A DNA stretch of 34,025 nt, from contig SLKS01000340.1 of NCBI GenBank assembly GCA_007134465.1, positions 1 to 34,025 on the forward strand, written 5' to 3'. Both the position numbers and the translations under genes were made by a program. Below, in pieces: positions 8,902 to 29,920 of the stretch. The number at the start of each line of letters is the position of its first letter. Position 1 is the stretch's first letter. This DNA is from Kiritimatiellia bacterium. GTDB taxonomy: Bacteria; Verrucomicrobiota; Kiritimatiellia; UBA8416; SLMC01. The notes under the pieces were generated by a model. The model made no database searches and was not told where the DNA came from. It was given only the letters and a program-made list of their open reading frames with translations.

Positions 8902-9140
8902 ACAACAACCATTATCATTTTCCGTGCCAACAAGCTTGATTCACCAAAACTCAAAACATAAACAATACGTTTAACTTTGCAATACAAAAGATTACAACCG
9001 CAAAAGACTTGTTCTCCGGAACAACACCAGCACACCCATGAGGCCATATGTTTGCCATTGGCCAATATCTTGCCAAAGCGAGACTGGGTTTCAAAGACGG
9101 ACTGGCCGACTACGGCGGGGGAATGAATCTTAGACCTATC

Positions 9141-9170
9141 GTCCTCGTCGTCGTTCTCGTTCTCGTCCTC
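9141..9170. repeat. Five 6-bp units GTYSTC
   Basis: gtcctc gtcgtc gttctc gttctc gtcctc. Confidence 0.8.
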
Positions 9171-9274
9171 GATTTCTCCCGTCAGGGGCAATGAATCGGG
9201 GATGCCCCCTGGCAAAAGCCATTCCCCGCTTTGCGCTTGCAGTTTCAGGCTTCCGACTGCTAGGGTGGGTTCCG

Positions 9275-18018: not shown

Positions 18019-18050
18019 GACCCAAGACGGGCTTCGCCAGCAACCCAAGT

Positions 18051-18182
18051 GGTCGGAAATCAGAGGTCGGAGGTCACGGAACACGACTACGGCGACGACT
18101 ACGGGGGACGACCTGCCCGCAGTGCTACAGCGTTGCAGGCGGGCTTCTGTCACTCGTAATCCGTAGTCGTCGCCGTAGTCGT
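18051..18182. repeat. 7-bp tandem block (18051-18078) followed by a perfect 22-bp inverted repeat of a 12-bp-period motif
   Basis: GGTCGGA AATCAGA GGTCGGA GGTCACG; arms 18083-18104 ACGACTACGGCGACGACTACGG and 18161-18182 CCGTAGTCGTCGCCGTAGTCGT are exact reverse complements, with GCCCGC...GCGGGC nested between. Confidence 0.9.
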
Positions 18183-18248
18183 CCACCGAATCCTCTTGTT
18201 TTTTTTCGACAGGACGTCGTGACGAAGGCGCCAACGCTTCATGTCTTT

Positions 18249-20153: not shown

Positions 20154-20696
20154 ATGAATGTATTCGAAGCGATCGAACAGCGTCACAGCTATCGCGGCGC
20201 TCTGAAGAACGAACCGGTACCCCGCGACGACCTGCGCGCCATTGTGGACGCCGGCCTGCGCGCGCCGTCCGGTTGCAACGCGCAAACCACGCAATTCGCC
20301 ATCGTGGACGATCCGGAGCTGATCGAACGCATCCACGCCATGCCCCAGGCCAACACGCCTGTGCTGCAGGCGCCCGCCTATATCGTCTGCATCGTGGACA
20401 AGAGCCCGCCGGATGTTTACAAGGGGTTGTCGTTCCAGGTGGAAGACTGTGCCGCCGCCGTGCAGAACATGCTGCTGGCCGTGACGGCGCTGGGCTATGC
20501 CACCGTCTGGATTGACGGCTGGCTGCGCAAGGACGCCCGCGCCGAAACGCTGGCCGCCTGGCTCGGCCTTCCGCACGGCAAGACCCCTCGCGTTCTGCTG
20601 CCGATCGGACGCCCGGCGGAAACGGCGCCGCGCCGCGAAAAGAAGCCGTTCGCGGAACGCGCCTGGTTCAACCGCTACGGATCGGAACAAGGATAA
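20154..20696 (+). CDS. Nitroreductase family protein
   Basis: MNVFEAIEQRHSYRGALKNEPVPRDDLRAIVDAGLRAPSGCNAQTTQFAIVDD...QNMLLAVTALGYATVWIDGW. Confidence 0.9.
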   Translation: MNVFEAIEQRHSYRGALKNEPVPRDDLRAIVDAGLRAPSGCNAQTTQFAIVDDPELIERIHAMPQANTPVLQAPAYIVCIVDKSPPDVYKGLSFQVEDCAAAVQNMLLAVTALGYATVWIDGWLRKDARAETLAAWLGLPHGKTPRVLLPIGRPAETAPRREKKPFAERAWFNRYGSEQG

Positions 20697-20773
20697 CCGC
20701 CGCCTGGCGTTGAACAGGCGAAGCACGGGCTTGCACGGACACGCATGAACATTCTCTGAAACAGGCTTGTTGG

Positions 20774-20919
20774 CGGGCTTGCGCCCGCAACCCAACGAAG
20801 GATACTCTCGCCAAGACACCAAGAACGCAAAGAACCGACTCTGCTTGGCGAACTTTGCGGCTTTGCGAGAGAAACAGTTGCAAAAGACACGCGCAAAACG
20901 TGTATCCTTGTCGGAAAGG
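20774..20919. repeat. Composite intergenic element, copy A
   Basis: 20774-20795 CGGGCTTGCGCCCGCAACCCAA; about 20807-20877 array of 9-bp units with inverted halves; 20891-20919 GCGCAAAACGTGTATCCTTGTCGGAAAGG. Confidence 0.8.
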
Positions 20920-20924
20920 GTTTT

Positions 20925-21818
20925 ATGCCTGTGCAAATAACTGGCTCCGCTTTTCCCGCGCCGCAACCGCTGATCGCGCGGGCCTGCCGCACGGGCGAAG
21001 GCCCGCTTTGGCATCCGGACGAACAGCGCATCTACTGGACGGACATTCCGGCCTGCCGACTCTACCGCTGCGCGGCCGACGGATCGGAACAGGAAGCGTT
21101 CGACACCGGCGAGCCGACCGGCGGCATTGCCTTGCAGGCCGACGGCGCTTTGGCTCTGTTCATGGCCCGCGGCGCCGTCCGGCGCTGGAAGCACGGCCGC
21201 TTCGAAGACACGCTCCTCGAAGAGATTCCCGCCGAACGCGATTCCCGTTTCAACGATGTCGTTGCCGATCCGCGCGGCCGCGTATTCGCCGGGACCATGT
21301 CCAGTCCGGCCCATGGCGGACGCCTTTACCGACTCGATCCGGACGGCACGCTCGCTCTGCTCGCCGAGAATATGGGCACGCCGAACGGCATGGGCTTTTC
21401 GCCAGATCTGCGCTTCTTCTATCAGAACGACTCGCGCGCGGCCTGCCTGTACCGTTATCGCTACGACGAAGCCTCCGGTTCCATCGCCGAGCGCGAAACC
21501 CTGTTCGAAGCGCGAGCGGAAGACGGCAAAGGCCGACCCGACGGCCTGACCGTGGACGCGGACGGCTGCCTCTGGACGGCCCGCTGGGACGGCGCATGCC
21601 TTGTCCGGCATGCGCCCGACGGCGAACCGCTTGCGGACATGCCGTTCCCGGTTCGGAAAGTGTCGAGCCTGACGTTCGGCGGCGCCGGATGCGACACGCT
21701 GTTCGCCACGACGGCCGGCGGCGACCGGCCGGACGAAAACGGCGCCCTGGCCGGCGCTTTGTTCGTTTGCCGCGCCATGCCCGTGCGCGGCCGGCCCGAA
21801 TACCGCTCCCGGCTCTGA
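20925..21818 (+). CDS. SMP-30/gluconolactonase/LRE family protein
   Basis: GEGPLWHPDEQRIYWTDIPACRLYRC, DSRFNDVVADPRGRVFAGTMSS, NGMGFSPDLRFFYQNDS, RPDGLTVDADGCLWTARWDGACLVRHAPDG. Confidence 0.92.
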   Translation: MPVQITGSAFPAPQPLIARACRTGEGPLWHPDEQRIYWTDIPACRLYRCAADGSEQEAFDTGEPTGGIALQADGALALFMARGAVRRWKHGRFEDTLLEEIPAERDSRFNDVVADPRGRVFAGTMSSPAHGGRLYRLDPDGTLALLAENMGTPNGMGFSPDLRFFYQNDSRAACLYRYRYDEASGSIAERETLFEARAEDGKGRPDGLTVDADGCLWTARWDGACLVRHAPDGEPLADMPFPVRKVSSLTFGGAGCDTLFATTAGGDRPDENGALAGALFVCRAMPVRGRPEYRSRL

Positions 21819-27578: not shown

Positions 27579-27855
27579 CGCGGGCTACGCTGCAAGAGCA
27601 AAAGCGTGAAAGAACCGGCGCACGGCTTGCAAGAACAGCGGTCCCGATGCGCTGTGCGGGCGGGAAGGAATACGAGTTGGGGCTTGATTTCCCCACCCTT
27701 CTCGCATGCCTGCCGTCGGCCTTCGCGCGCAGATGGCTTGCCGTGATCGGCCGCAGATTCATGCCGAAACGCGGCCGGAGACCATACACGCCGGAATATC
27801 TGTCGTTTTGAGAAGGCTCCATGCGCTGTCCGCGACCAACCCGACCTGCCATTCC

Positions 27856-28938
27856 ATGATTGACCGCCGTCAAATCGAAAAGAGGCTGAACCGCCTGCAG
27901 GAACTCGAAAGCGAGCTGGCGCAACCGGACTTGGCCAAGCGCCCCGCCAAGCTTCGCCAGTTGGTGCAGGAGCATGCCGCGCTCAAGAAACTGGGCGAAA
28001 AATCCGACCGCTATTTCCGGCTGGCGACACAGATTGAAGAGAACGAAGCGATGGTCGCGGCGGACGAGACGGACGCCGAACTCAAGGCGCTGGCGGAACA
28101 GGATATCGAAGAATGCCGGCCCGCGCTCGAAACCGCGCGCGCCGATTTGCTTGTCGCCCTCTTGCCGCCCGATCCGACCGCCGCCCGCAATGCGATCATG
28201 GAAATCCGCGCGGGCACCGGCGGCGACGAAGCCGGCCTGTTCGCCGCCAACCTGTTGCGCATGTATCAGCGCTATGCCGAATCGCACGGCTGGAAAATCG
28301 GCATGATCGACGCCCATGCCGGTTCGATGGGCGGCTGCAAGGAAGCGGTATTCATGGTGGAAGGCGACAACGCCTACGGCACGCTGCGCTTTGAAAGCGG
28401 TGGCCATCGCGTGCAGCGCGTGCCGGTCACCGAGTCGCAGGGCCGCATCCACACGTCGGCCGCGACCGTGGCCGTGTTTCCGGAGGCGGAACCCGAAGAC
28501 GAGATCGAATTGCCGGCCGACGAACTGCGCGTGGACATTTTCTGCTCGTCCGGACCCGGCGGACAAGGCGTCAACACCACCTATTCGGCCGTGCGCGTAA
28601 CGCATCTGCCAACGGGCATCGTTGCGCAAAGCCAGGACGAACGCTCTCAGCACCGCAACCGCGAAAAGGCGCTCACCGTACTCAAGTCGAGAATCCTCGA
28701 CGCCCGCCGCCGGGAAGAGGAAGAGCGACAAGGCCGCAACCGGCGCTCGCTCATGGGCTCCGGCGACCGCAGCGAGCGGATTCGCACCTACAATTTCCCC
28801 CAGAACCGCGTCACGGACCACCGCATCAATCTCACGCTGTACAATCTGGATGCCGTCATGGAGGGGGATTTGGAAGAGTTGCTGGCCGCGCTGCGCCAGC
28901 ACGATCAGAACAGCCGGCTCGAAGAGCAAACGGCTTAA
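27856..28938 (+). CDS. prfA: Peptide chain release factor 1
   Basis: [48 protein letters not shown] (PxT motif); [25 protein letters not shown] (GGQ). Confidence 0.96.
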
Positions 28939-28940
28939 CT

Positions 28941-29036
28941 CGGGCTGCGCCCGCAACCCAATTTGTTTTTCCACCACGGAATACGCGGAACACACGGAAA
29001 AATGCGCGCAAAAACGTGTGTCTTTGCCGGAAAGGC
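28941..29036. repeat. Composite intergenic element, copy B, between prfA and prmC
   Basis: 28941-28961 CGGGCTGCGCCCGCAACCCAA; three 9-bp units 28973-28999 (accacggaa tacgcggaa cacacggaa); 29006-29035 GCGCAAAAACGTGTGTCTTTGCCGGAAAGG. Confidence 0.85.
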
Positions 29037-29044
29037 ACGGCATT

Positions 29045-29920
29045 ATGGCGGAAGGTATCCCGGATCGCACTGTGGACGCAGTCCTGCGCGGCGGTGCCGA
29101 CTGGCTCGCTCGCCGGGGCGTCGACCAGCCTCGCATCGCCTGCGAATTGTTGCTGGCCCGGCTGCTGGCCCGACCGCGGCTGTCGTTGCACCTGATCGGC
29201 GACCAAACGCTCGACGACCGCCGGCTCGAAGCCATGCGTCGGGGTTTGCGGCGGGTGGCAGCCGACGAGCCGGTCCAGTACGTAACCGGGCAAGCCGAGT
29301 TCATGGGCCATGTCTTCGCTACCGACAAGCGCGCCCTGATTCCCCGCCCCGAAACGGAAGTTCTGGTTCGCGAAGTTCTGGCCTGCGCTCCCTTGTGGCA
29401 GGACAAGACGCCGGCCATCGTGGATGCGGGAACCGGGTCCGGCTGCATTGTGCTTAGCCTGGCTCTGGAACGGCCCGCCGCGCACTATATCGGGCTCGAC
29501 ATCAGTCCGGACGCCGTGGCGCTGGCCCAGGAGAACCGGCAAGCTTTGGGTGCGCAAGACCGCGTTGCGCTCGCCGAGGGCGAACTGGCCGATACGGTCG
29601 AACCCGGCATGCTGGACGCGCTGGTATCGAATCCGCCCTACATTCCTACTTCTGTCTGGGAAACGCTGCCCGCGCACATTCGCGAGCATGAGCCGCGGCT
29701 GGCGCTCGACGGCGGCCCCGACGGGCTGGCCGTTCTCGAGCAGATGGTGCAGGACGCGACCTTCGCTCTCAAGCCGCAGGGTCGGCTATTTCTGGAAATC
29801 GGCTACGATCAGGGGCCGCGCGTCCGCGCGCTGTGCGAGGAAGCCGGATTCGCCGACATCGTCGTCGCGCCCGACCTGGCCGGCCGCGACCGCGTCGTCC
29901 ACGCCCGCTGGCCGGGGTGA
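29045..29920 (+). CDS. prmC: Release factor glutamine methyltransferase PrmC
   Basis: QYVTGQAEFMGHVFATDKRALIPRPETEVLV; VDAGTGSGCIVLSLALERP; LDALVSNPPYIP (NPPY motif). Confidence 0.95.
   Translation: MAEGIPDRTVDAVLRGGADWLARRGVDQPRIACELLLARLLARPRLSLHLIGDQTLDDRRLEAMRRGLRRVAADEPVQYVTGQAEFMGHVFATDKRALIPRPETEVLVREVLACAPLWQDKTPAIVDAGTGSGCIVLSLALERPAAHYIGLDISPDAVALAQENRQALGAQDRVALAEGELADTVEPGMLDALVSNPPYIPTSVWETLPAHIREHEPRLALDGGPDGLAVLEQMVQDATFALKPQGRLFLEIGYDQGPRVRALCEEAGFADIVVAPDLAGRDRVVHARWPG

Follow-up and report, generated by a model that had tools for sequence, protein, structure and literature searches.

BOX elements of streptococci are organised as boxA-boxB(n)-boxC, and in S. suis the ends boxE and boxF occur with shared boxB and boxD modules (PMC3049150, in which NIME are also named). 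REP, BIME and REPIN sequences are described together with RAYT (TnpA-REP) transposases (PMC2817692, PMC3733652, PMC6006769). Among short periodic intergenic repeats, heptamer repeats are reported from cyanobacteria and from Beggiatoaceae (PMC4679880). Despite decades of description, the particular combinations in which the modules of mosaic intergenic repeats occur mostly lack an explanation. A search of the open literature, with most subscription journals outside its scope, retrieved no earlier description of such repeats in Kiritimatiellota.

The window, i.e. the whole stretch of 34,025 nucleotides analysed here, contains two copies (A and B) of a composite repeat consisting of a left end (module 1), a core (module 2) and a right end (module 3). 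The closest described architecture is that of BOX elements. Compared by architecture, both are short intergenic composites with constant ends and a variable middle, nested or clustered with other repeats; in the present composites, the constant ends are unlike each other. Both also have different pairs of ends around the same middle, in the case of BOX in S. suis. BOX middles comprise one or two module types, whereas at least 11 unrelated ones were found here in one genome and others elsewhere. BOX elements were reported with terminal inverted repeats and target duplications, whereas no duplication was supported here, and both the sequence and the phylum are different. In NIME, variable units are bounded by dRS3, the same repeat on both sides. 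The present elements likewise have different internal units bounded by a conserved short repeat, but the repeat on the left is not related to that on the right. Arrays of 7-9-bp units make up several cores, which in this respect resemble the heptamer repeats; for the latter, no mention of bracketing conserved hairpin ends was found (PMC4679880). As in MITEs, the elements are short (<300 bp by that definition; ~100-300 bp here), intergenic, non-coding and of high copy number. Terminal inverted repeats in common with an autonomous IS were not found, as no such IS was present among the loci examined.

Composite elements of the window

Copy A is located on the forward strand between a nitroreductase-family gene (20154-20696; Pfam PF00881, E 1e-24) and an SMP-30/gluconolactonase-like gene (20925-21818; Pfam PF08450, E 3.5e-67), both on the same strand. 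The left end, module 1 (20772-20795), is the hairpin GCGGGC-TTGC-GCCCGC with a 6-bp stem (GCGGGC/GCCCGC), followed by AACCCAA. The position equivalent to YYAA (20768-20771) carries a deviant TGTT; in most copies TTAA, CCAA or TCAA is found there. The core (20796-20883) is an inverted 9-bp periodic array with the forward units TCGCCAAGA CACCAAGAA CGCAAAGAA at 20808-20834 and the inverted half CTTGGCGAA CTTTGCGGC TTTGCGAGA at 20844-20870. Module 3 (20884-20924) comprises the hairpin ACACG/CGTGT, a second weak hairpin and GGAAAGG, which could act as a ribosome-binding site, judging from its sequence; the ATG at 20925 abuts this module. In the earlier note, which was made from the letters of the window, module 3 had been described as a conserved tail; it is conserved, but is also a hairpin itself.

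Copy B follows prfA (peptide chain release factor 1; 27706-28938, forward strand; Pfam PCRF and RF-1). Its left boundary TTAA (28935-28938) includes the prfA stop codon (TAA, 28936-28938). On the same strand, module 1 (28939-28961), a core of three direct 9-bp units, ACCACGGAA TACGCGGAA CACACGGAA (28962-28998; core type a), and module 3 (28999-29038) follow, and the ATG of prmC is located downstream at 29045. Copy B hence agrees with the earlier claim that modules 1 and 3 recur in the same order at a second site with a different module 2. A third, diverged member of the family (18019-18235, forward strand) has the module 1 variant ACCCAAGACGGGCTTCGCCAGCAACCC, a different fold-back core with inverted arms at 18070-18111 and 18154-18195, and terminates on the right in an alternative end, termed Y (...TCTTGTTTTTTTTCGACAGGACGTCGTGACGAAGGCGCCAA). 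The window further contains a 26-nt inverted repeat (31276-31301/31502-31527; 96% complementary, 200 nt between the arms) and, at 9133-9183, another dispersed repeat (cctatcgtcctcgtcgtcgttctcg...) which is found at many loci, e.g. beside the composite in L004.

Conserved ends and exchangeable cores

The source genome (G000) is a MAG of a Kiritimatiellae-related bacterium (409 contigs, 4.0-Mb assembly, 85% complete); because of its fragmentation, many element copies are situated at contig ends. Exact matches in this genome amounted to 117 for a module 1 13-mer and 64 for the module 3 core pattern, with 0 for each of the reversed-pattern controls (0-1 for the controls overall). About 167 copies of module 1 were found with a relaxed pattern (at most 1 mismatch), and about 137 copies of module 3 with a covariance model, by which the window copies were classified as diverged members (E 7e-9 and 5e-9, these values being rough). 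In view of the excess over the reversed controls and the presence throughout the genome, the copies are neither due to chance nor a local accident. The consensus of module 1 (109 seed copies) is TTAA-GGCGGGC-TTC-GCCCGCAACCCAA. That of module 3 (64 seed copies) is ATACACGCAAAA[AG]CGTGTAT-C-TTTTTGAAAAAGGCTCTAA, in another rendering ATACACGCAAAA[AG]CGTGTAT, then CTTTTTGAAAAAGGCTCTAA. The ends of the element, YYAA-GCGGGC...GCCCGC-AACCC on the left and ATACACGCAAAAACGTGTAT...CTAA on the right, are unlike each other, and both are hairpins as judged from their sequence. Compensatory stem changes were not found among the copies of the source genome, which are too alike for this test to have power; it is therefore their conservation that points to a function of the hairpins.

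Pairing was tallied for 67 unique copies of module 3 (loci baited with module 3 plus the window), and module 1 was sought within 250 bp, with categories that can overlap. Module 1 was located upstream on the same strand in 49/67, downstream on the same strand in 4 and on the opposite strand in 1, and was missing in 17. About one quarter of the module 3 copies have no recognisable module 1 nearby, a figure that is biased since loci were chosen by module hits. As a paired pattern, modules 1 and 3 thus show a preferred order and orientation throughout the genome instead of occurring independently.

At least 11 unrelated core types, comprising periodic 7-9-bp arrays and fold-backs, were distinguished in the source genome. 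Among the 67 composites, the core was of type a (9-bp ACCACGGAA, direct) in 15, type b (9-bp ACTACGAAA, inverted) in 14, type c (CCACAAAAAACAC, inverted) in 10, type d (GAACAGAAGGCAAC) in 9, type f (CTTCGGCCGAGATTCC) in 5, type g (7-bp GGCGTTAG) in 4 and type h (CACCATGAAGGGCATGAAG) in 3. Types e, i, j and k were found once each, copy A being the sole copy of type k, and three composites are almost core-less (22-28 nt). The periodicity ascribed earlier to the core therefore applies to several 7-9-bp arrays, but other cores are non-periodic inverted sequences or gene fragments, or are nearly absent. A ~30-bp repeat, ACCCGCCTTCGCAAAGCCTACGGCGAGGC (ACCCGCCTTCGC...GGCGAGGC), is nested in 13 of the 9-bp cores of types a and b, in either orientation (e.g. 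L012, L027, L028, L036, L112, L119).

Core similarity was 0.73 within types vs 0.46 between types. The corresponding values were 0.789 within and 0.790 between core types for module 1 (permutation p 0.49) and, barely higher within, 0.780 and 0.757 for module 3 (p 0.028). Mutual information with core type was high as far as CCCAA at the left edge and as far as the base preceding ATACACG at the right edge; within both ends it fell to near zero, apart from weak exceptions at module 3 positions 16, 35 and 41. Most copies retrieved by genome searches with cores b and d adjoin at least one end (module 1 and/or module 3); those core b copies for which neither end was scored are for the most part reverse readings of the palindromic core.

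Another composite repeat, 'Z', has a 9-bp ACCGCAAAGAACACAGAG core and the end TTTCCAGG followed by NTAA (L111, L128, L137, L140, L134, L445, L446, L157). It appears to be inserted at TAA into cores f and d, and also abuts module 1 elements. Inverted, REPIN-like pairs with module 1 at both ends were observed at L054/L055, L165 and L104.

Boundaries, orthologous sites and related genomes

The left tetranucleotide of the 67 composites of the source genome was TTAA in 39, CCAA in 4, ACAA in 4 and TCAA in 3, besides others, and the left stem begins 0-1 nt after YYAA. The right triplet was TAA in 38/67 (flanks registered by model position, with a few rows shifted). Among copies with CAA on the left, the right triplet was TAA in 13 vs TCA in 3, so that the flanks are unmatched, unlike a duplication. 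Target-site duplication, which is characteristic of MITEs and had been proposed as a check, is accordingly not supported. Among 33 upstream genes judged confidently to be coding (called with a simple codon model of our own), the boundary TAA is exactly the stop codon in 14, and in a further 15 the stop codon precedes it by no more than 25 nt. Genes on the reverse strand to the right often end at the CTA/TTA of the right boundary, and in several copies a start codon follows module 3 at a distance of a few nt. The distance of 5 nt from module 3 to the ATG, as given in the earlier note, held for copy A but is not general; the position of left ends at stop codons is the stronger rule. Tandem elements abut, with one TAA common to both.

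Comparison genomes were used as one representative per species, including G001 (same genus as the source genome) and G031 (same class, different family). The genes argB and argD overlap in G002 and are separated in the source genome by a composite with core b, where the stop codon of argB is formed by the boundary TAA and argD is intact. In front of rubrerythrin, there is a short gap in G001 vs a composite with core d in the source genome (the names argB, argD and rubrerythrin were taken from protein sequences, not from Pfam). Nearly adjacent in many relatives, prfA and prmC are separated by copy B in the source genome and by another module 1-like element in G001. The site of copy A is occupied in G001 by other repeats, including module 1 with core e in reverse orientation. 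The comparison with relatives suggested earlier thus revealed loci where the element is absent or different, but no base-level empty site with exact joints, the compared sites being orthologous but diverged. Precise empty sites inside other repeats were not found. In several relatives (L193, L188, L182, L183), different short periodic repeats were observed after the prfA stop codon in the prfA-prmC gap, without module 1.

When a 21-nt module 3 pattern was searched against 84,980 species representatives, matches elsewhere were confined to five MAGs, which are labelled Kiritimatiellae, Kiritimatiellaeota, Lentisphaerae or Verrucomicrobia. The module 1-module 3 pair was found in six further genomes, i.e. 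G001, G031, KR13, NC_groundwater_387, STD1_155 and MMG_102. Copies of module 3 according to the covariance model numbered 137 in G000, 29 in KR13, 27 in NC_groundwater_387, 17 in G001, 6 in STD1_155, 4 in MMG_102 and 2 in G031. In KR13, NC_groundwater_387, STD1_155, MMG_102 and G001, the cores that separate module 1 from the module 3 behind it are quite different; at one locus of KR13 (L343), the two modules are separated by 4 nt. The earlier claim of conserved ends with an exchangeable core hence holds both genome-wide and in seven genomes. G001 has ~74 copies of module 1 vs 17 of module 3, and behind most of these module 1 copies, core e and the right end Y are found.

One module 1-module 3 pair (L276) was found in G031. 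Some module 1 elements of this genome contain a broken open reading frame and terminate with CAGGTGCTAA; the multi-copy broken frame MNSF.QRFSNKIKG.ISGFDR... (L283 1498-2367, L289) is located in L283 between module 1 and such an end. The G031 open reading frame after module 1 (MNSFTQRFSNKIKGVISGFDR...) was considered as an autonomous element and rejected: it had no Pfam/NCBIfam match, was present in only 1/38 genomes, and its copies are interrupted by other repeats and a stop codon. For these reasons it was treated as captured cargo. A possible link of GxxExxY proteins to periodic repeats was also followed, and nothing relevant was found in the literature.

Probable mobility and alternative explanations

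Copies A and B probably belong to a single family of intergenic elements of Kiritimatiellae that are MITE-like and non-autonomous; that these are mobile is held with moderate confidence. Modules 1 and 3 would be the two unlike ends, which may form hairpins when single-stranded and be recognised by a mobilising enzyme acting in trans. The core would be a passenger, exchanged in the course of time between ends that persist. Left ends are located at YYAA, which frequently coincides with the TAA that terminates the gene upstream, and in this way the element could settle between genes without breaking their reading frames. The fixed order and orientation, the conservation of the ends in seven genomes, the cores unlinked to them, the absence at orthologous sites and the position at stop codons argue for this reading.

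Some of these observations may also be explained by separate repeats, BIME- or NIME-like, which, like the cores, gather where genes end and are reassorted through homologous recombination and gene conversion without ever being one mobile unit. End variants are indeed not linked to core type, module 1 also pairs with Y and, inverted, with itself (L165, L054), and tandem elements abut with a common TAA. Such an origin is nevertheless unlikely, as order and orientation are one-sided, the same pair persists across class-level distance, nearly core-less pairs exist, and cores b and d are hardly found without at least one end. A MITE of a DDE transposase, with the terminal repeats TTARRGC and a duplicated TAA target, would be in line with TAA as the commonest flanking triplet on both sides and with the one TAA common to tandem copies; TTARRGC-like termini are TTAAGGCG on the left and, read inward, TTAGAGCC/TTAGCGCC/TTAGACGC on the right. 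This origin appears rather improbable, since left CAA usually goes with right TAA, the boundaries differ in G031 (CCAA left, CTAA right), and the terminal similarity extends over only a few bases. The right end was also compared by eye with integron attC sites (paired R''/L''-L'/R' boxes with GTTRRRY). Read inward, it is TTAGAGC/TTAGCGC in the source genome, which departs from RRRY, and KR13 has TTAGAC; the TAA is followed by a random base.

Alternatively, the composite might be kept as a 3'/5' untranslated module for gene expression, with module 3 providing a hairpin and the GGAAAGG ribosome-binding site, and the ends providing stop codons. The stop codons exactly at the left boundary and the start codons shortly after module 3, including the end of copy A at an ATG, are compatible with this function. 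It is however quite improbable: orientation relative to genes is inconsistent, the element is missing at the orthologous genes of relatives, conservation of the T-run behind the hairpin does not extend to KR13 and NC_groundwater_387, neither a terminator nor a promoter was found at copy A on the forward strand, and an Rfam search of the window gave no match.

Provided that the elements are mobile, the enzyme has a somewhat less than even chance of being a single-strand (HUH/Y1, REP- or IS200-like) transposase. HUH features (PMC6006769) fit better than those of DDE enzymes because of the unlike hairpin ends, the fixed left motif, the constant CTAA right end and the lack of duplication. REP sequences are likewise high-copy extragenic hairpins in pairs and arrays, Y1 transposase genes are present in all seven genomes, and the GC-rich stem of module 1 is preceded by a tetranucleotide at a distance of 0-1 nt. 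This tetranucleotide is, however, YYAA instead of GT[AG]G or CGTC, modules 1/3 flank no RAYT gene, and here two unlike ends surround an unrelated core. IS200/IS605 derivatives (PATE-like) are similar in the predicted subterminal hairpins at both ends, the fixed short left sequence, the constant right-end tetranucleotide and the lack of target duplication. They differ in that the left hairpin of the present elements abuts the boundary, leaving no room for a guide sequence, and no autonomous tnpA copy was found. Confidence in the enzyme class is low because the IS608-type guide geometry and the REP tetranucleotides are both missing and the modules do not flank Y1 genes. Among the loci examined, no autonomous copy with both ends and a transposase gene, and no mobilising enzyme, was found. 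Modules 1/3 did not flank the genes at 22 Y1 loci, with the exception of one inverted module 1 pair ~240 bp away. This pair was observed in L104 downstream of a Y1 transposase gene. At the same locus, inverted repeats (ATCGTGCATTCGACACG; 1320-1350 and 2275-2295) that have no relation to modules 1 and 3 flank a Y1 transposase gene in a REPtron-like arrangement.

From BOX elements, the family is set apart by how many unrelated middles it has, by the conservation of unlike ends across genomes and by the lack of duplication. It seems doubtful, though conceivable, that it represents a lineage-wide, cargo-agnostic class of elements mobilised as single strands, in which interior exchange would be part of the life cycle and the ends would capture repeats or dead gene fragments as miniature cassettes directed to stop codons. 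A single pair of unlike ends has been kept over class-level distance while the middle was wholly replaced, with sharp switch-over points. The defined end sequence may serve as bait for the mobilising enzyme, and the same ends with any middle offer a natural comparison by which the needs of mobility can be separated from the passenger. As the case of argB and argD illustrates, overlapping genes can become separated by 170 bp with both reading frames retained.
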